Source: Lysobacter sp. yr284 (GTDB lineage Bacteria; Pseudomonadota; Gammaproteobacteria; Xanthomonadales; Xanthomonadaceae). From it: a stretch of 64,000 nt of DNA. Positions 43,891-51,493 of this stretch are shown piece after piece. Location: positions 1 through 64,000 of the forward strand of contig NZ_FNPT01000004.1 in NCBI RefSeq assembly GCF_900107375.1. The letters run 5' to 3'. Position numbers and translations under genes: made by a program. The first letter of the stretch is position 1; each line of letters starts with the position of its first letter. A model generated the notes under the pieces. The model ran no database searches. It had not been told where the DNA came from and worked only from the letters and a program-made list of their open reading frames with translations.

Positions 43891-44844
43891 ATGACTTCGC
43901 CCCGCTGGCGCCTGATCCTCAACGGCAAGTCCGCCGGCAACGACGAGGTACGCAAGGCCGTCGCCGCACTGCGCGACCGCGGCGTCGCCCTGGACGTACG
44001 CGTGACCTGGGAAGGCGGCGACGGCGAGCGCTACGTCGCCGAAGCCGTCGCCGACGGCGTCGACACGGTGATCGCCGGCGGCGGCGACGGCACCCTCAGC
44101 GAAGTCGCCACCGCGCTCGCCCATCGCGACGAGGACGCCGGCGCGCTGCCGAGCCTGGGCCTGCTGCCGCTGGGCACCGCCAACGACTTCGCCACCGCCG
44201 CGACCATCCCGACCGATCCGGCGCACGCGCTGGACCTGATCCACCGCCAGCCGCCGCACCCGTTCGACCTGCTGCGGCTGCAGGCGCCCGACGGCCTGCA
44301 CTGGGCGGCGAACCTGGCCAGCGGCGGCTTCGGCACCCAGGTCACCCTGGAGACCGACGCCGGGCTCAAGAAGATGCTCGGCGGCCTGGCCTACCTGGTC
44401 ACCGGCATCGCCAAGCTGGGCAAGCTCGAGCCGCTGCAGGCGCGGGTCCACGGCGAGGGCTTCGAGTGGCAGGGCGACTTCCTCGCCCTGGCCGTCGGCA
44501 ACGGGCGCCAGGCCGGCGGCGGGCAGGTGCTGTGTCCCGACGCGTACATCGACGACGGCCTGCTCGACGTGACCGTGCTGCCGAATTTCTCCGGCGAGGT
44601 CGGCGCGGCCATGCGCACCATGCTGACCGAAAGCGAGCGCGCCGCGTTCGAGCGCATGACCGTGCGCGCGCAACTGCGCTGGGTCGAGATCGAGGCGCCG
44701 CGCAGCCTCAATCTCAACCTGGACGGCGAGCCGGTGCAGTCGCAACGCTTCCGCATCGACTGCGTGCCGGCACGGCTGCGCATGCACCTGCCGGCCGGCT
44801 GCCCGCTGCTGCGCGCCAACGCCGAGACGGCCGCGCAGGGCTGA
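43891..44844 (+). CDS. yegS: YegS-like lipid kinase
   Basis: A 317-residue diacylglycerol-kinase-fold enzyme. It aligns with E. coli YegS throughout: [23 protein letters not shown], the nucleotide-binding [15 protein letters not shown] (about 65-79), [38 protein letters not shown] and the lipid-site NLDGEP. YegS phosphorylates phosphatidylglycerol in vitro; the physiological substrate is unsettled. Its 18 C-terminal residues extend past PLLRAN. A possible -10 box (TAGCCT, 43854-43859) precedes the ATG by 31 bases. Confidence 0.93.
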
Positions 44845-44911
44845 CCGGCCGGGCCTGCGACGGCCCGCGCGTTCCGGCGCCGGACCGTCGCGCAAGGCGC
44901 GCGAAGTCGGG

Positions 44912-44917
44912 TACAGT
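44912..44917 (+). promoter_or_regulatory. -10 box of the trpE leader transcript
   Basis: TACAGT ends seven bases before the leader ATG (44925), so transcription should start at or beside that ATG, making a leaderless message. The -35 region is GC-rich and not recognisable. The trpG leader has the same box at the same distance. Confidence 0.55.
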
Positions 44918-44924
44918 GGCGGCC

Positions 44925-45068
44925 ATGCAAGCCTGGGCGAACCCGCATTCCTTCTGCGCCGACGTGGGTTGGCGATGGTGGCCGTCGGTCATCACCGCTC
45001 CTGCCCACTCGTCCATGAAGGAATTCCCGCGTGATTTCGCACGAACTCTTCCAGCAGCAGGCCGCTGA
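44925..45068 (+). CDS. trp leader peptide 1 (upstream of and overlapping trpE)
   Basis: A 47-codon frame. Trp codons sit at residue 4 and in a cluster GWRWWPS (15-21; TGG at 44970, 44976 and 44979), followed by FPRD (34-37). The frame runs through the trpE GTG and stops 38 bases inside trpE. GTGGG (44964-44968) can pair with CCCAC (45004-45008), with GGTG/CACC nested inside, so a ribosome stalled on the Trp codons would open a hairpin lying just before the trpE ribosome site. No T-run terminator is visible. Attenuation through Trp-codon stalling is inferred. It is a homologue of the 47-codon frame at 50474. Confidence 0.75.
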   Translation: MQAWANPHSFCADVGWRWWPSVITAPAHSSMKEFPRDFARTLPAAGR

Positions 45069-46506
45069 CGGCTACACCCGCATCCCGGTCGTGCGCGAGG
45101 TCCTGTCCGACCTCGACACCCCGCTCTCGGTCTACCTCAAGCTCGCCGACGGCCCGCACACCTATCTGTTCGAATCGGTCGAGGGCGGCGAACGCTTCGC
45201 CCGCTATTCCATCATCGGCCTGCCGGCGCAGCGCGTGTACGCCTTCGCCGGGCACAGCCTGTTCGTCACCGAGAACGGCGAGCTGGTCGACAGCCGCACG
45301 GTGGACGACCCCTTCGCCGAAGTCGAGCGCCTGCGCGTGGAGCACAAGGTGCCCAAGATCGACGGGTTGCCCGGCTTCGCCGGCGGCCTGGTCGGCTGGT
45401 TCGGCTTCGAGTGCATCCAGTACATCGAACAGCGCCTGGCCGGCGGCGGCAAGCCCGACGAACTGGGCACGCCCGACATCCTGCTCATGCAGAGCGAGGA
45501 AGTCGCGGTGTTCGACAACCTCAAGGGCCGGCTGTACCTGATCGTCCACGCCGACCCGAGCCAGCCGCAGGCCTACGCGCGCGCCAACCGCCGCCTCGAC
45601 CAGCTCGTGCACCGCCTTCGCATCGGCGGCCCGGGCTATCCGGAAACGCTGGATTCGGTCGGCCTGGACGAAGGCGACTTCGTCTCCGGCTTCACCCGCG
45701 AAGGCTTCATCGACGCGGTCGAGCGCTCCAAGGAACTGATCCGCGCCGGCGACATCTTCCAGGTGGTGCTGTCGCAGCGGCTCAGCGTGCCGTTCAAGGC
45801 GCGCCCGGTCGACGTCTACCGCGCGCTGCGCGCGTTGAACCCGTCGCCGTACATGTATTTCCTCGACGTCGGCGGCACCCAGGTGGTTGGCTCCTCGCCG
45901 GAAATCCTGGTGCGCCTGCAGGGCGGCGAAGTCACCGTGCGCCCGATCGCCGGCACCCGTCCGCGCGGCAAGAACGCGGACGAAGACAACGCGCTGGAAG
46001 CCGAGCTGCTGGCCGATCCGAAGGAGCGCGCCGAGCACCTGATGCTGATCGACCTGGGCCGCAACGATGTCGGCCGGGTGTCGTTGCCGGGCACGGTCGA
46101 AGTCGGCGAACAGTTCGGCATCGAACGCTACAGCCACGTCATGCACATCGTCAGCGAAGTCACCGGCAAGCTGAAGCCGGAGATGAGCTACGCCGACGTC
46201 CTGCGCGCGACCTTCCCGGCCGGCACCGTCAGCGGCGCGCCGAAGATCCGCGCGCTGGAAGTGATCCGCGAGTTCGAGCCGGTCAAGCGCAACGTCTACT
46301 CCGGCGCGGTCGGCTACATCGGCTGGCACGGCGACGCCGACACCGCCATCGCGATCCGCACCGCGGTGATCCAGGACGGCCGCCTGCACGTGCAGGCCGG
46401 CGCCGGCATCGTCTACGACTCCGACCCGCAGAAGGAGTGGGAGGAGACGATGAACAAGGGCCGCGCGCTGTTCCGCGCCGTGGCCGAGGCGGCGCGCGGG
46501 CTTTAA
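45031..46506 (+). CDS. trpE: Anthranilate synthase component I
   Basis: A 491-residue chorismate-using subunit that makes anthranilate with the TrpG glutaminase. The N-terminal domain carries the Trp feedback site, including LFESVEGGERFARYSIIG (LxES motif, about residues 50-67). The catalytic domain holds PSPYMYFLD, RPIAGTRPRG, ERAEHLMLIDLGRNDVGRV and TFPAGTVSGAPKIRA. The GTG at 45031 follows AAGGAA by seven bases and lies within the leader-peptide frame. The stop is immediately followed by the ATG of an unrelated low-GC gene. Confidence 0.97.
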   Translation: MISHELFQQQAADGYTRIPVVREVLSDLDTPLSVYLKLADGPHTYLFESVEGGERFARYSIIGLPAQRVYAFAGHSLFVTENGELVDSRTVDDPFAEVERLRVEHKVPKIDGLPGFAGGLVGWFGFECIQYIEQRLAGGGKPDELGTPDILLMQSEEVAVFDNLKGRLYLIVHADPSQPQAYARANRRLDQLVHRLRIGGPGYPETLDSVGLDEGDFVSGFTREGFIDAVERSKELIRAGDIFQVVLSQRLSVPFKARPVDVYRALRALNPSPYMYFLDVGGTQVVGSSPEILVRLQGGEVTVRPIAGTRPRGKNADEDNALEAELLADPKERAEHLMLIDLGRNDVGRVSLPGTVEVGEQFGIERYSHVMHIVSEVTGKLKPEMSYADVLRATFPAGTVSGAPKIRALEVIREFEPVKRNVYSGAVGYIGWHGDADTAIAIRTAVIQDGRLHVQAGAGIVYDSDPQKEWEETMNKGRALFRAVAEAARGL

Positions 46507-47316
46507 ATGCCTAATTTCAGCGAGCGCATGGGGCTAAAGCCCGTAAGGACCATCGCCCAAGTTGGTTCGATGGATGATGCGCTACGCAATACTCTATGGA
46601 ACGCTTTGTCTTCGTTCTTTGAGTCATCAAGTTGCGACGATGGGGATTTCACAAGGGCGCTGTGGTGGCATTTTTTTAAGAAGCCAGTTGATACGAGACC
46701 TGTCTATAACAGTGGTTTTGGCACATCTTATGTCGATGTTTGGGCCGAGGTGCGTGCCTTCTACTTCACCAATGACTGGAGCGTTGTCTACGATTTCGTT
46801 GAGTTTGTCCTGAAGTGTTATCCGCACGCAGACAAGCTGCATGCGAACATTGGTAGGGCCCTCCGAGCAGAGAGCGCTGGTTATCGACTGCTAAATGGGC
46901 GAGTTGTGCCGATTACGGATGAGCATGAGGTGCGTGAGGTTGCTGCTGCGGCCTCTGATGCCTATGGACCTGTGGCTGCGCATGTGCGATCGGCAATCGA
47001 TTTACTCACCGATCGCGAGAAGCCGAATTATCGAAATTCGATCAAAGAATCTATCTCTGCCGTAGAGGCCATGGCGAAGATCGTTGCAAACGAGCCTAAG
47101 GCCACACTAGGCGATGCTCTAAAAGCTCTTGAGAGGAATGGCAAGCTGCACCCCGCACTCAAGGAAGCTTTTCTGAAGCTTTACGGCTATACCAGCGATG
47201 CACAGGGCATACGCCATGCGCTTGTTGACGAGGCCAATCTTTCTCAGGCCGATGCGCGCTATTTCCTTGTGGTCTGCAGCGCTTTCATCAACCTGTTGAA
47301 AGCTCAGGCGGTCTGA
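46507..47316 (+). CDS. AbiJ-like (AbiJ_NTD4) abortive-infection protein, horizontally acquired
   Basis: A 269-residue protein. The start NFSERMGLKPVR and SMDDALRNTLWNALSSFFE match the AbiJ N-terminal domain 4 family. The C-terminal half (IKESISAVEAMAKIV, LHPALKEAFLKLYGYTSD, GIRHALVDE) is helical and HEPN-like, as in predicted RNA-targeting defence proteins. Base composition breaks sharply from its surroundings: 46561-46620 is 27/60 G+C, against 46/60 in the last full line of trpE (46441-46500). Its ATG abuts the trpE stop with no gap and no good ribosome site, so it would be read with trpE. Family call is from memory; anti-phage function is inferred. Confidence 0.78.
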   Translation: MPNFSERMGLKPVRTIAQVGSMDDALRNTLWNALSSFFESSSCDDGDFTRALWWHFFKKPVDTRPVYNSGFGTSYVDVWAEVRAFYFTNDWSVVYDFVEFVLKCYPHADKLHANIGRALRAESAGYRLLNGRVVPITDEHEVREVAAAASDAYGPVAAHVRSAIDLLTDREKPNYRNSIKESISAVEAMAKIVANEPKATLGDALKALERNGKLHPALKEAFLKLYGYTSDAQGIRHALVDEANLSQADARYFLVVCSAFINLLKAQAV

Positions 47317-47661
47317 GTCAGGGTTTTCGCTGGGCTCTTGAGCGATGAAGGCCTAGATACCGCTTTTGTCTCTACTAGCGTGGAACTGAACTCTTGTGGC
47401 GGGCGCCCATAGGAGTTGTCTGGCTTGCGCTCTCAAAAAAGGGCGTTGGCCATTAGCTGTAGCGGATTGCGGTGCATCAGTCCTAGAGTCTCGCCCATGG
47501 TGGGTGTCTGCGTAGCCGGTAGCAAAAGTACATGTGGTGCGGATTACAAAAAGTTCATGGTCCGGAAAGGCCCGGGGCAGGGCCGCGGGCGCAATCTGGC
47601 TTCGCGATGGGGCCCACCCCACCGGTCCAGACCTCCCGCCCCATTCCCCAGGAGCCACACC
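47317..47661. other. 345-base AT-richer flank of the acquired gene
   Basis: No gene is supported. The composition stays low in G+C to about 47570 and then returns to the genome norm, marking the probable right edge of the insertion. No inverted terminal repeats, tRNA fragment or recombination site was recognised. The last part holds the ribosome site CAGGAG (47650-47655) of the next gene. Confidence 0.5.
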
Positions 47662-47865
47662 ATGAACGTCCGCACCGTCCTGCTCGCCGCCGCCCTGACC
47701 GCGTTCGCCGGTTCCGCCTTCGCCGCCGCCCCGGCGGCCGCCGGTTCGACCGCGGCGCCGGCCGCCAAGACCGCGTCGCACAAGCACAAGAAGCATCACA
47801 AGGCCTCGAAGGCCAAGGCCGCCAAGGCCGCAGCGGCTCCGGAAGCGGCGCCGGCCTCGAATTGA
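47662..47865 (+). CDS. Secreted His/Lys/Ala-rich small protein, acid-shock (Asr)-like
   Basis: A 67-residue precursor. It has a clear signal peptide (MNVRTVLLAAALTAFAGSAFA, cleavage after residue 21 or 22), then a low-complexity mature part with SHKHKKHHKASKAKAAK and an Ala/Pro tail. The pattern is like the Asr acid-shock protein of enterobacteria, an intrinsically disordered periplasmic basic protein. Similarity is compositional, so function is tentative. A very strong terminator follows. Confidence 0.75.
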   Translation: MNVRTVLLAAALTAFAGSAFAAAPAAAGSTAAPAAKTASHKHKKHHKASKAKAAKAAAAPEAAPASN

Positions 47866-47915
47866 TCCTTCGCGAGCCTGCTCCCCCGAGCCCCACGCAT
47901 CGTCGGCGTGGGTGT

Positions 47916-47953
47916 GATACCCCGCCGGCGTGAGCCGGCGGGGTATCTTTTTT
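47916..47953 (+). terminator. Strong intrinsic terminator
   Basis: GATACCCCGCCGGC (47916-47929) pairs fully with GCCGGCGGGGTATC (47934-47947) around GTGA, followed by six T. It ends the small basic protein transcript. Confidence 0.93.
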
Positions 47954-48055
47954 CCGGGCGGAGCGCGCGACGGCCGGGCCCATCCGCGCCTCGCCCGCCG
48001 GCCCGCGCGTTATCCTGTCGGCGCTTTCCTGCACCGTCGCGCTCTCGGAGGCGGT

Positions 48056-48730
48056 ATGCGCGTCCTGCTCGTCGAAGACGATCCCCACACCGCCGGCTTC
48101 ATCGCCAAGGGCCTGCGCGAAGACGGCCACAGCGTCGATCACGCCGGCAACGGCAAGGACGGCCTGTTCCTGGCCACCACCGAAACCTACGACGCCATCG
48201 TCCTGGACCGGATGCTGCCGGGCCTGGACGGGCTGACCCTGCTGCAGACCCTGCGCGGCGCCGGCAACCGCACCCCGGTGCTGCTGCTGACCGCGCTGGG
48301 CGAAGTCGACCACCGCGTCGAAGGCCTGCGCGCCGGCGCCGACGACTATCTGGTCAAGCCGTTCGCCTACGCCGAGCTGTCCGCGCGCCTGGACAGCATC
48401 CTGCGCCGCGGCAGCGCCGGCGGCAGCGAGCCGACCCGGCTGCGGGTGGCCGACCTGGAACTGGACCTGCTCAGCCGCGAAGCGCGCCGCGGCGACAAGC
48501 GCATCGAACTGCAGCCGCGCGAGTTCCGCTTGCTCGAATACCTGATGCGCCAGGCCGAACGCGTGGTCACCCGGACCATGCTGCTGGAAGCGGTGTGGGA
48601 CTACCACTTCGACCCGCAGACCAACGTCATCGACGTGCACATCAGCCGGCTGCGGCAGAAGATCGACCAGGGCTACCCGCGGCCGTTGCTGCACACCGTG
48701 CGCGGCGCCGGCTACCGGTTGGGCGCGTGA
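48056..48730 (+). CDS. OmpR-family response regulator
   Basis: A 224-residue regulator. The receiver domain has Glu7-Asp8-Asp9, the phospho-acceptor Asp51 (VLDRMLPG), a conserved Thr in LLLTALG and Lys in LVKPF. The C-terminal winged helix ends VHISRLRQKI...GAGYRLGA. The ATG at 48056 begins MRVLLVEDD. It is 31 bases before its kinase. The style is close to CopR/QseB-type regulators; target genes are not visible. Confidence 0.93.
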   Translation: MRVLLVEDDPHTAGFIAKGLREDGHSVDHAGNGKDGLFLATTETYDAIVLDRMLPGLDGLTLLQTLRGAGNRTPVLLLTALGEVDHRVEGLRAGADDYLVKPFAYAELSARLDSILRRGSAGGSEPTRLRVADLELDLLSREARRGDKRIELQPREFRLLEYLMRQAERVVTRTMLLEAVWDYHFDPQTNVIDVHISRLRQKIDQGYPRPLLHTVRGAGYRLGA

Positions 48731-48761
48731 GCGCCGGCGACGCCGATCCGCGGGCCCGCGC

Positions 48762-50120
48762 ATGCGCGTGATGCCGCGCTCGACCAGCGCGCGCCTGGCG
48801 CTGGCGGTCACCGCCTCGTTCCTGCTCGCCTTCGTGCTGCTCGGCATCGGCGTGCACTACGCGGTCTCGGCGATGCTGATCCAGGACGCGCGCGATCTGG
48901 TCCGGGTCGACGCCGCCGGCCTGGTCGAGATGTACCAGGACGACGGCCGCGCCGCCCTGCTCGGCGAACTGCGCGACCGCATCGACGCCGACGAAGATCC
49001 CGACGCGGTATACGCGCTGACCGCGCCCGACGGCCGCGTCGTCGCCGGCAACGTCGCCCTGCCGCGCCACCATCGCGGCGCGCGCTGGATCGAGTTCACC
49101 GAACACCGCGCCGACGGCGACCTGCGCGTGGTCGCGCAGCTGCAGCGGCTGCCCGACGGCACCACCCTGTTGACCGGCACCCGCACCCGCAGCCAGGACC
49201 GCTTCCTCGGCCTGATGCTGCGCACCGCGCTGGCGGCGTTGTTGGTCGCGGCGACCCTGGGCGCGCTGATCGGCTGGCTGACCTCGCGCTGGGTCTCGCA
49301 CCGGCTCAGCCACCTGGACCACACCGCCGAGCGCGTCGGCAGCGGCGAGATGGCGCTGCGCGCGCGCCTGGACGGCAGCGACGACGCCTTCGACCGGCTG
49401 GCGCGGCGCTTCAACGCCATGCTCGACCGCATCCAGGACCTGCTCGACGGCGTGCGCCACGCCACCGACCACATCGCCCACGACCTGCGCACGCCGCTGA
49501 CCCGCCTGCGCAACCGCCTGGAAGAACTGCGCCGGCGCGAACCCGGGGTCGAGGCCGGCACCCAGCTCGACGCCGCCATCGGCGAGACCGACCAGCTGCT
49601 GCATTCCTTCGGCGCGCTGCTGCGGCTGGCGCGGATCGAGGCGCAGCCGCCGGTGCACGACGAACCGATGCTGGACCTCAGCGACCTGGTCCGCGACGCC
49701 GCCGAGCTGTACACCCCGATCGCCGCCGAACGCGGCATCGGCCTGACGATGAACCTGCCCGAGCCCGGCGTCGCCGGCCTGCGCGGCGACGCCGACCAAC
49801 TGTTCCAGATGTTGGTGAACCTGCTCGACAACGCGGTCAAGTACGCCCCGGCCGACACCGAGGTCGGCCTGGGCGTGCAGCGCGAGCGCCACGCCCTGGT
49901 GCTGCAGATCGACGACCGCGGCCCCGGCATTCCCGCGGCCGAGCGCGAGCGCGTGTTCGACCGTTTCCACCGCCTGGAAGCGCACCGCGGCTCGCCCGGC
50001 ACCGGCCTGGGCATGAGCCTGGTGCGGGCGATCGCGCACCGCCACGGCGGGCACATCGCCCTGCTCGACAACGCGCCGGGGCTGCGGGTGCGGGTGACCC
50101 TGGGCGAGGCGGGCGGGTAG
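48762..50120 (+). CDS. Sensor histidine kinase
   Basis: A 452-residue inner-membrane kinase. Transmembrane helices at about 11-33 and 150-172 bracket a periplasmic domain. A HAMP domain (about 173-225) leads to the dimerisation helix with His240 in HIAHDLRTPL. The ATPase domain has the N-box (LLDNAVKYAP), G1 (DDRGPGIP) and G2 (GTGLGMSLV). It starts MRVMPRST at 48762, in tandem with the preceding regulator. The signal is unknown. Confidence 0.93.
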   Translation: MRVMPRSTSARLALAVTASFLLAFVLLGIGVHYAVSAMLIQDARDLVRVDAAGLVEMYQDDGRAALLGELRDRIDADEDPDAVYALTAPDGRVVAGNVALPRHHRGARWIEFTEHRADGDLRVVAQLQRLPDGTTLLTGTRTRSQDRFLGLMLRTALAALLVAATLGALIGWLTSRWVSHRLSHLDHTAERVGSGEMALRARLDGSDDAFDRLARRFNAMLDRIQDLLDGVRHATDHIAHDLRTPLTRLRNRLEELRRREPGVEAGTQLDAAIGETDQLLHSFGALLRLARIEAQPPVHDEPMLDLSDLVRDAAELYTPIAAERGIGLTMNLPEPGVAGLRGDADQLFQMLVNLLDNAVKYAPADTEVGLGVQRERHALVLQIDDRGPGIPAAERERVFDRFHRLEAHRGSPGTGLGMSLVRAIAHRHGGHIALLDNAPGLRVRVTLGEAGG

Positions 50121-50157
50121 GGCGGGGCGGTTGGGGCAAGCGCTTCGCGCCTGACAC

Positions 50158-50415
50158 AACAGCGTCGGGCCTGAAGGCCCTCCCACAACAGCCGCGATGC
50201 CTGTACCTGTGTGGTCGGGCGTCCAGGCCCGACGCTCAATGCTTTTGTGGGAGGGCCTTCCGGCCCGACGCTCATGCTTTTGTGCGAGGGCCTTCAGGCC
50301 CGACGCTCTTGCCGCTGCGGGAGGGCCTTCGGGCCCGGCGCTCTTGCCTCTCCAGGAGGTTCTTCAGCCGATGCTCTTGCCTTTGTGGGAGGGCCTTCAG
50401 GCCCGACGCTCGTGT
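50158..50415. repeat. Family A repeats: one inverted arm, then six direct copies at about 35-bp period
   Basis: One arm in the complement orientation (50158-50190) is followed by six head-to-tail copies of the GTGGGAGGGCCTTCAGGCCC-GACGCT unit, starting near 50211, 50247, 50282, 50317, 50352 and 50385. The steps are 36, 35, 35, 35 and 33 bases. The fifth is the most degenerate. Elsewhere family A occurs as single inverted pairs, so this expansion is unusual. It lies between the kinase and the second trp leader. Confidence 0.85.
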
Positions 50416-50461
50416 CCCAGCCGAGGCCGCCCCCGCGCTCGCACCCCCGCGCCCCAGCGGT

Positions 50462-50467
50462 TACAGT
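50462..50467 (+). promoter_or_regulatory. -10 box of the trpG leader transcript
   Basis: TACAGT ends six bases before the second leader ATG (50474), mirroring the trpE leader arrangement; a leaderless transcript is expected. No -35 box stands out. Confidence 0.55.
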
Positions 50468-50473
50468 AGCCGC

Positions 50474-50617
50474 ATGATCCTCCGCGCGATCCCGACGAAA
50501 TCCCCGCAGACCGGCCTGGGCTGGCGATGGTGGCGTAGCGCCTCCGTCCGCCCGCTGCCGTCTTCCGAGGATTTCCCGCGTGACCCCGCCATCGCCTTCC
50601 TGCCCCGCGACCGCTGA
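50474..50617 (+). CDS. trp leader peptide 2 (upstream of trpG)
   Basis: A 47-codon frame, exactly the length of the leader before trpE. It shares GWRWW (16-20), SS near 30-31 and FPRD (34-37), in the same order and nearly the same spacing; both end in Arg. The three Trp codons (TGG from 50522, 50528 and 50531) form the same cluster. After FPRD the DNA repeats the TTCCCGCGTGA context that starts trpE, but here it leads into no recognisable protein. Sensing of charged tRNA-Trp for the trpG operon is inferred. Confidence 0.75.
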   Translation: MILRAIPTKSPQTGLGWRWWRSASVRPLPSSEDFPRDPAIAFLPRDR

Positions 50618-50636
50618 CCGCGGTCGGCGCGACCGC
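50608..50636 (+). promoter_or_regulatory. Three mutually exclusive pairing segments at the end of leader 2
   Basis: CGACCGC (50608-50614), GCGGTCG (50620-50626) and CGACCGC (50630-50636) allow either a 1:2 or a 2:3 seven-base hairpin, never both. Segment 1 lies in the last codons of the leader frame, so translation to the stop would free segment 2. No T-run follows. The rest of 50637-50911 holds no supported gene. Confidence 0.45.
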
Positions 50637-50911
50637 CGCGCCGCGACCGTTCTCCCGCTGCGCGACGCCGCGGCGCCATCCTCCCGTCAGCACCCGGACC
50701 CGGGTCCCGAATCGGTCGCAAGGACCGCTTCGCGGATCGCACCGGGCGTCGCCTGCGCACGCGATAATGCCGGCCCCATGGGCGGCCGGGGACGCCGCCG
50801 GGGACGGGCGCCGCCGCGGTCCCGATCCGCCATGCCCCTGTCCTCGCGCCGGCCCGCCGGCCGGCGCGCCCGCTCGCTCCACCCCAGCACCACCCGCACC
50901 CGAGGCGCGTC

Positions 50912-51493
50912 ATGTCCGTCCTGATGATCGACAACTACGACAGCTTTACCTACAACCTCGTGCAGTACCTGCAAGCGCTCGGCAGCGAGGTCCGGGTGAT
51001 CCGCAACGACGAGCTGTCGGTGGACGAGATCGAGCGCCTGGCGCCGCAGCGCATCGTGGTCTCGCCCGGCCCGTGCACGCCGGACCAGGCCGGCGTGTGC
51101 CTCGACGTGATCCGCCGCCTCGGCGCGCATACGCCGATCCTGGGCGTGTGCCTGGGCCACCAGAGCCTGGGCCAGGCCTACGGCGGCCAAGTGATCCGGG
51201 CCAAGCGGATCATGCACGGCAAGACCTCGCCGATCCGCCACCAGGGCGCGGGCGTGTTCGCCGGCCTGCCCGACGGTTACGAGGCCACCCGCTACCACTC
51301 GCTGGTGGTCGAGCGCGACAGCCTGCCGCAGGAGCTGGAAATCACCGCCTGGACCGAGTACGAAGACGGCGGCTTCGAGGAGATCATGGGCCTGCGCCAC
51401 CGCGAACATCCGGTGGAGGGCGTGCAGTTCCACCCCGAGTCGATCAAGACCGAGCACGGTCATGCGCTGTTGCGAAACTTCCTGCAGCGCTGA
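50912..51493 (+). CDS. trpG: Anthranilate synthase component II (glutaminase)
   Basis: A 193-residue class I glutamine amidotransferase that supplies ammonia to TrpE. The catalytic triad is Cys in [11 protein letters not shown] plus His and Glu in [13 protein letters not shown]. The oxyanion motif [11 protein letters not shown] is present. First gene of trpG-trpD-orf-trpC-HAD, separated from trpE by 4.4 kb. It may also serve p-aminobenzoate synthesis, as in other bacteria with a single small subunit; that is inference. Confidence 0.97.

Follow-up and report, generated by a model that had tools for sequence, protein, structure and literature searches.

Tryptophan-codon leaders overlapping trpE and a relay-like frame before trpG in Lysobacter sp. 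yr284 as candidate translational attenuators

The separation of trpE from trpG in Lysobacter sp. yr284, a member of the Xanthomonadaceae (Lysobacteraceae) with a genome of 6.25 Mb, raises the question of how the two halves of anthranilate synthase are kept in step with the supply of tryptophan. The window analysed comprised the first 64,000 nucleotides (nt) of contig NZ_FNPT01000004.1 (RefSeq assembly GCF_900107375.1), in which each gene is preceded by a short Trp-rich leader frame, here termed L1 before trpE and L2 before trpG. An earlier note on this sequence had described the two as homologous, leaderless genes acting as duplicated attenuators, and had taken an FPRD motif shared beyond the Trp codons as a sign of an additional function. 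Beyond that note, it was found that FPRD spells the ribosome binding site and start of the next open reading frame (ORF), that L1 overlaps trpE, and that L2 overlaps a further frame, ORF-C, which itself overlaps trpG. Translational attenuation fits these findings better than transcriptional attenuation, and a ribosome-operated translational attenuator sensing charged tRNA-Trp, present twice, is considered the probable mechanism. The features before and within trpE are as follows.

44910-44917, plus strand: extended -10-like promoter box of L1 (GNTACAGT), with TACAGT at 44912-44917, judged by the box-to-start spacing across 70 genomes.
44925-45068, plus strand: L1 leader frame (ORF-A), 47 codons, with ATG at 44925, TGA at 45066-45068 and TACAGT 7 nt upstream.
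44937-45040, plus strand: predicted long hairpin of L1 codons with the trpE Shine-Dalgarno (SD) and start region, enclosing the Trp-codon helix (single-sequence fold, z -2.2).
44970-44981, plus strand: L1 Trp cluster TGG CGA TGG TGG (W16, R17, W18, W19), near-invariant in the family and predicted 5' arm of the apical helix.
45018-45022, plus strand: trpE SD, AAGGA, read in the leader as K32-E33 and aligned across the family.
45031-46506, plus strand: trpE, anthranilate synthase component I (PF00425, 2.6e-95; PF04715, 9.1e-29).
45064-45068, plus strand: trpE Ala codon 12 (GCT) plus GA, forming the leader stop inside trpE, as judged from a 60/70 versus 5/42 contrast described below.

The coordinates of two 47-codon frames, each 6-7 nt after TACAGT, were confirmed, with the GWRWW sequence at residues 15-19 of L1 and 16-20 of L2. 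Conservation was evaluated in 119 genomes of the family, which yielded upstream regions of trpE from 112 (7 lacked a full trpE match) and of trpG from 113 (6 lacked a good trpG match), and for both leaders in a second sample of 80 loci of named species, among which the TrpE of Lysobacter enzymogenes is closest to that of the window (96%). A strict search for a box, a spacing of 5-9 nt, a start codon and an in-frame CGATGG recovered L1 from 70 of the 112 family genomes. L1 was likewise present at 58 of the 80 named loci, including those of Lysobacter, Luteimonas, Thermomonas, Stenotrophomonas and Xanthomonas, and L2 was found in 21 distinct genomes. These results support homologous Trp-codon leaders, one for each half of the split trp unit, as the earlier note had supposed, and show their conservation in relatives.

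The box of the 70 L1 leaders has the form TANA(G/T)T or TAGCAT (TAAAGT 27, TACAGT 26, TAGAGT 9, others 8) and lies 6-9 nt before an ATG (49) or GTG (21). The spacing was 6 or 7 nt in 66/70 L1 and in 13/13 L2 of the family set, in accord with the leaderless layout claimed at the outset. The G two bases 5' of the L1 box was 99% conserved and no clear -35 element was present among the 70 leaders. Across the 112 genomes, the 500 nt before trpE contained 1750 ATG or GTG triplets, of which 64 were preceded by TANA(G/T)T ending 6-7 nt before them, versus 0 of 2032 in the reverse-strand control. From the box spacing alone, the transcript probably starts at or beside the leader start codon.

L1 shares 38 nt with trpE, its own stop included, and runs past the trpE start in 65/70 genomes, most commonly with the stop 35 nt inside the gene (38/56 in the tabulated class). 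The frame of L1 relative to trpE was identical in 68/70 genomes across 19 distinct distances. When the initial 45 nt following the trpE anchor were examined, a stop in the leader frame was present in 60/70 genomes with L1 versus 5/42 without, while in the other frame of the same 45 nt the values were 10/70 and 3/42. Since the set of 42 includes a few real leaders missed by the search (for example G013 and G083), the contrast is conservative. The stop is mostly provided by GCC-GCT-GA(A/C), where L1-less genomes mostly have GCC-GCC or GCC-GA(C/T), and GCT is rare, accounting for 3 of 264 Ala codons in the seven window genes from which codon usage was counted. Of all the signs, the leader-specific stop and the fixed frame point most strongly to translation of the leader into trpE.

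The overlap also bears on the alternative of classical or Rho-dependent transcriptional attenuation, by which stalling at the Trp codons would decide whether the polymerase terminates ahead of trpE and trpG or shortly after entering them. Elsewhere among the proteobacteria, leaders with Trp codons usually control their trp operons through transcription, and the leaderless trpL of Sinorhizobium meliloti is described in PMC7298713 as transcriptional. In the family studied here, however, the extension of L1 beyond the trpE start in 65/70 genomes leaves little room for a terminator, and the conserved pairing presented below takes up an SD instead of building a terminator. No terminator-like site was found in 44840-45120 or 50400-50960 by a simple scan to which Rho-dependent stops are invisible, nor was there an Rfam match in either leader region even at an E value of 1. 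L1 and L2 share with the classical trp attenuators a short ORF with neighbouring Trp codons, lack a detected intrinsic terminator and a known leader family, and by the features tested do not belong to that class. Of the duplicated attenuators first proposed, the two Trp leaders stand and the classical type does not, and transcriptional attenuation is regarded as an unlikely alternative.

The FPRD sequence occupies residues 34-37 of both window leaders, and its origin is evident from the overlap. Within L1, TTC-CCG-CGT-GAT holds the GTG start of trpE, 8 nt after AAGGA, and CCGCGTGAT just 3' of AAGGA encodes P-R-D in the leader frame, while the letters for FPRD in L2 hold an SD-like GAGGA and a GTG. 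Since L1 extends beyond the trpE start, FPRD results from reading the downstream gene's SD and start codon in the frame of the leader. The peptide FPRD was found in 3/70 L1 leaders, close relatives having CPRD, PPRD or SLRD, and variability 3' of the Trp codons was equal at the three codon positions (mean entropy 0.99, 1.08 and 1.16 bits in 18 representatives). The rarity of the motif and the equal variability indicate that selection appears to act on the RNA, the frame and the stops and not on this part of the peptide. The same three findings, on occurrence, codon positions and origin of the letters, speak against the peptide function of FPRD that its presence in both leaders had suggested, which was accordingly rejected. 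It could still be argued from the wide conservation of the leader, and from the precedent of the S. meliloti peptide peTrpL (described in PMC7298713), that the leader peptide or a short RNA acts in trans with FPRD as part of the function. Such action is hardly credible given the 3/70 occurrence, no codon-position signal 3' of the Trp cluster, and SD, start and pairing that explain much of the sequence.

In predicted folds, each leader adopts one long hairpin: the SD and start of the next ORF are paired with leader codons 5-15, and this outer stem encloses a helix between the Trp codons and the sequence that follows them; in L1 the Trp cluster pairs with the segment immediately 3' of it. The z values were -2.2 for L1 and -2.0 for L2 of the window, and the mean for L1 of 51 genomes remaining after removal of near-duplicates was -1.9, with values below -1 in 43/51. 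The pairing was further evaluated by an alignment-free swap test, in which the 5' part of the leader was paired with its own SD region or with those of other genomes. For L1 (38 genomes), own partners gave -21.7 versus -18.1 kcal/mol for swapped partners (z -6.6; 0/2000 permutations), and for L2 (10 of 13 genomes) the values were -22.8 versus -18.6 kcal/mol (z -3.9; 1/5000). Stalling was modelled by masking the stretch covered by a ribosome stopped at the Trp codons, after which the openness of the SD was calculated. Modelled openness of the L1 SD rose from 0.20 to 0.45, increasing by more than 0.1 in 38/51 genomes and decreasing by that much in 2/51, and the effect on L2 was weaker (0.18 to 0.34). 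Thus, two hallmarks of translational attenuators, an SD of the controlled ORF held in the leader hairpin and its release upon stalling, are present in the predicted folds and in the folding model, respectively.

A second frame within L1, ORF-B, begins at the ATG in CGATGG and ends with a TGA on the trpE start (GTGA or TTGA), and could be reached by initiation or by a -1 shift at hungry Trp codons, followed by restart at trpE. ORF-B ends on the trpE start (GTGA, TTGA or ATGA) in 56/70 L1 genomes, with a length of 18-20 codons in 51/56, and its frame contains a stop in 5/70 genomes versus 14/70 for the trpE frame. The leader frame is equally poor in stops (5/70), NTGA is also common at the trpE start of leader-less genomes, and the fixed frame between leader and trpE accounts for much of the pattern. 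Only 5/13 L2 retain a counterpart of ORF-B, and that of this genome is shortened to 3 codons. ORF-B, attractive in L1, was dropped as the main mechanism since it is not kept in L2; it is improbable in that role and probably a by-product.

ORF-B would also explain the invariant CGA of the Trp cluster, which encodes the Arg in the L1 and L2 leaders read (44973-44975 and 50525-50527 in the window) and accounts for 1 of 209 Arg codons in the seven window genes. This invariance was dropped as proof of ORF-B, since the strict search demands CGATGG and it holds there by construction. When the codon directly 5' of TGG was counted more loosely in box-led frames, CGA was found in 73 cases, CGC in 10 and CGT in 2; the CGC and CGT cases inspected represent the first Arg of RWWRWW leaders, in which the second Arg is CGA. 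The CGA codon may function in pairing, in pausing or in ORF-B.

The arrangement before trpG comprises the following features.

50460-50467, plus strand: extended -10-like promoter box of L2 (GTTACAGT), with TACAGT at 50462-50467; the box lies 6-7 nt before the start in 13/13 L2.
50474-50617, plus strand: L2 leader frame (ORF-A), 47 codons, with ATG at 50474, TGA at 50615-50617 and TACAGT 6 nt upstream.
50522-50533, plus strand: L2 Trp cluster TGG CGA TGG TGG (W17, R18, W19, W20), read from the sequence.
50567-50582, plus strand: GTG start of ORF-C with its SD-like GAGGA, corresponding to the FPRD letters of L2; predicted pairing to leader codons 8-10.
50580-50924, plus strand: ORF-C, 114 codons, with TGA at 50922-50924 inside trpG.
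50912-51493, plus strand: trpG, anthranilate synthase component II (PF00117, 2.1e-60).

The scan for L2 covered 96 trpG upstream regions, two of which had almost no upstream DNA, leaving out 17 more with trpE directly before trpG. L2 was detected in 13 of the 96 and at 15 of the 80 named loci; 7 of the latter appear to be records already among the 13, hence the total of 21 distinct genomes. The sequence TGGCGATGGTGG occurs in 19 exact copies in the genome, of which only the L1 and L2 copies follow a box and start codon. L2 overlaps ORF-C by 38 nt in the window, leader stop included, and in 10/13 genomes the leader terminates 20-53 nt beyond the start of ORF-C. The TGA of ORF-C lies 7 or 10 nt past the ATG of trpG, in the frame expected for coupling, in 11/13 genomes of the family set and 15/15 named loci (19/21 distinct). 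The distance from the ORF-C start to trpG varies from 134 to 386 nt, with 14 distinct values in the right frame.

Stops before trpG were found in the ORF-C frame in 0/21 genomes, and in the other two frames in 6/21 and 18/21. Openness alone is a weak sign because in dinucleotide shuffles the ORF-C frame stays open with a probability of 0.36-0.80 per start; a frame kept across many length changes is the stronger sign. That ORF-C is a genuine small protein without relay function would agree with an open frame in 21/21 loci and an SD-like start in most of them. This explanation is very improbable in view of the range of lengths (47-132 codons among the 19 in-frame genomes), translations that by eye have little in common beyond short ends, and no Pfam match for the window ORF-C. 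An upstream ORF that ends a few nt from the next start in a conserved frame, as in 19/21 genomes here, is characteristic of translational coupling, and ORF-C seems to be a relay that would pass ribosomes to trpG. One further element lies within it, and may be a second, Trp-independent promoter of trpG.

50763-50768, plus strand: GATAAT, possible second trpG promoter within ORF-C; found in this interval in 12/21 L2 genomes.

The preferred mechanism, translational attenuation present twice, would proceed as follows. Transcription would begin at the leader start codon or immediately beside it, and the leader would therefore be translated as a leaderless message. In the transcript, leader codons 5-15 are predicted to sequester the SD and start of the next ORF around the Trp-codon helix. 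When tryptophan is ample, the ribosome would cross the leader and the next SD and start, terminating about 35 nt inside the next gene, so that the SD is overrun or folded away; trpE would keep a special stop for this leader ribosome. When tryptophan is scarce, the ribosome would stall at TGG-CGA-TGG-TGG and cover the 5' arms of both helices, leaving the SD free, and translation of the next ORF is therefore proposed to start. L1 would act on trpE directly. L2 would act on ORF-C, which occupies the place of trpE in the presumed ancestral trpE-trpG order, and the end of ORF-C inside the start of trpG would couple the translation of trpG.

Several results weigh against this mechanism. L1 ends before trpE in 5/70 genomes, and in 5/70 the leader contains a single Trp codon. 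The L2 stop precedes the ORF-C start in 3/13 genomes (G019, G065 and G093), and ORF-C is in a shifted frame in G105 and in frame with trpG in G096. In the swap test of L1, the own partner was the best for 8/38 genomes and in the best quarter for only 19/38, and relatedness among the genomes means that the samples are not independent. Modelled openness of the SD drops from 0.40 to 0.15 in G105, and several L2 hardly change. Consensus folding with RNAalifold on MAFFT alignments recovered no SD helix in either leader: L1 gave only the apical helix (7 pairs, 0 compensatory) and L2 gave 15 pairs close to the Trp codons, of which 2 showed compensatory changes. The consensus is weak because the 5' part of the leader aligns badly, for which reason the alignment-free swap test was used instead. 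The trpE leaders of G052, G078, G080 and G105 have one Trp codon with the CGATGG core intact; it is possible that single-Trp leaders reflect decay or hint that CGA-TGG is the essential part.

By the same kind of scan, such a leader was found in 0/22 trpE upstream regions read from other families of the order, in a search of 53 non-family genomes with one wrongly anchored locus excluded. A tree was built from the TrpE of the 80 genomes for which it was complete; one outer group in it lacks the leader, with scattered losses elsewhere. A GCTGGCATACT box is present at a comparable distance in many leader-less trpE upstream regions, which gives the impression of an ordinary promoter in the position of the leader. 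L2 occurs in three groups of the tree: Lysobacter proper; G045, G052, G078 and G105, with G096 nearby; and G019, G065 and G093. Support for the nodes between these groups is weak, and from shared details a single origin of L2 followed by losses is judged more likely than three gains. In 17 genomes the gap between trpE and trpG is within 30 nt, and this arrangement is taken as the ancestral order. A history can be outlined in which genes came between trpE and trpG and the whole control region of trpE, including its start, was copied before trpG. ORF-C would then be a content-free stand-in for trpE, selected only for its start, open frame and end; two translational Trp sensors would keep both halves of anthranilate synthase in step, and trpE would carry a built-in stop for the leader. 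We regard the chances of this history as evenly balanced.

The interval between trpE and trpG contains an AbiJ-like gene, a response regulator and a histidine kinase, the block that splits the two genes. Several head-to-tail palindromic units resembling GGGAGGGCCTTCAGGCCCGACGCTC occupy 50200-50420, between the histidine kinase and the L2 promoter. The remaining neighbours are as follows.

46507-47316: gene directly 3' of the trpE stop, with an N-terminal AbiJ domain (PF18863); genes of this type are associated with phage defence.
51551-52648, plus strand: trpD, 3' of trpG (PF00591, 1.7e-93).

If the proposed mechanism is correct, a clade that includes Xanthomonas, Stenotrophomonas, Luteimonas and Lysobacter would regulate its tryptophan synthesis through a leaderless, overlapping, translational sensor and not by the textbook terminator. 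The leader stop in trpE would represent a structural gene with codon choice set by another frame, and ORF-C a coding frame whose only apparent role is to hand ribosomes on to the downstream gene, with a bearing on the purpose of unconserved small ORFs in high-GC genomes. Both the trpE stop and the relay ORF yield clear and cheap predictions.

No description of these leaders in Xanthomonadaceae was found in a search of open-licence full-text literature, and comparison is made here with better known systems. The leader of the E. coli trp operon (trp leader in Rfam) also contains Trp codons before trpE, a family to which the Lysobacter leaders give no match. The split trp unit of Pseudomonas, in which trpE and trpGDC each have their own transcriptional attenuator, resembles the present arrangement in having a leader before each half, although we know of no relay ORF in the Pseudomonas trp leaders. 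Closer in principle is the rtpLP leader of Bacillus subtilis rtpA (anti-TRAP), attributed to work of Chen and Yanofsky in 2003/2004, where a short Trp-codon leader is likewise said to control translation initiation of the next gene, with stalling exposing the SD. The rtpLP leader reportedly has its own SD, follows a T-box and ends before the next start, and completed ribosomes sit on the SD. In contrast, L1 and L2 look leaderless, overlap the controlled gene, stop inside it and are predicted to pair with its SD, and a relay ORF is added in L2.

In the translational attenuators of erm and cat resistance genes, the SD is concealed in a hairpin, which is opened by a ribosome stalled on the leader. 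Those systems differ in responding to an antibiotic and in having a standard leader upstream without gene overlap, whereas here the signal would be Trp starvation and the leader overlaps. Translational attenuation of erm is outlined in PMC5118997. For S. meliloti, PMC7298713 describes a leaderless trpL that acts by transcription attenuation and yields a small RNA by-product and a 14-residue peptide. It resembles the Lysobacter leaders in its Trp codons, its place upstream of trpE(G) and an ATG at the transcript start, which here is suggested by box spacing, and differs from them in that the latter have no detected terminator-like site, comprise 47 codons and overlap trpE. The LEU element of actinobacterial leuA, as presented in PMC1262725, likewise has a leader ORF with successive codons for the amino acid that the pathway makes, together with a stem that includes the SD of leuA. 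In that element the SD is paired with the regulatory codons themselves, and the authors of that work are sceptical of a leader mechanism, whereas in the leaders described here codons other than the regulatory ones are predicted to pair with the SD.

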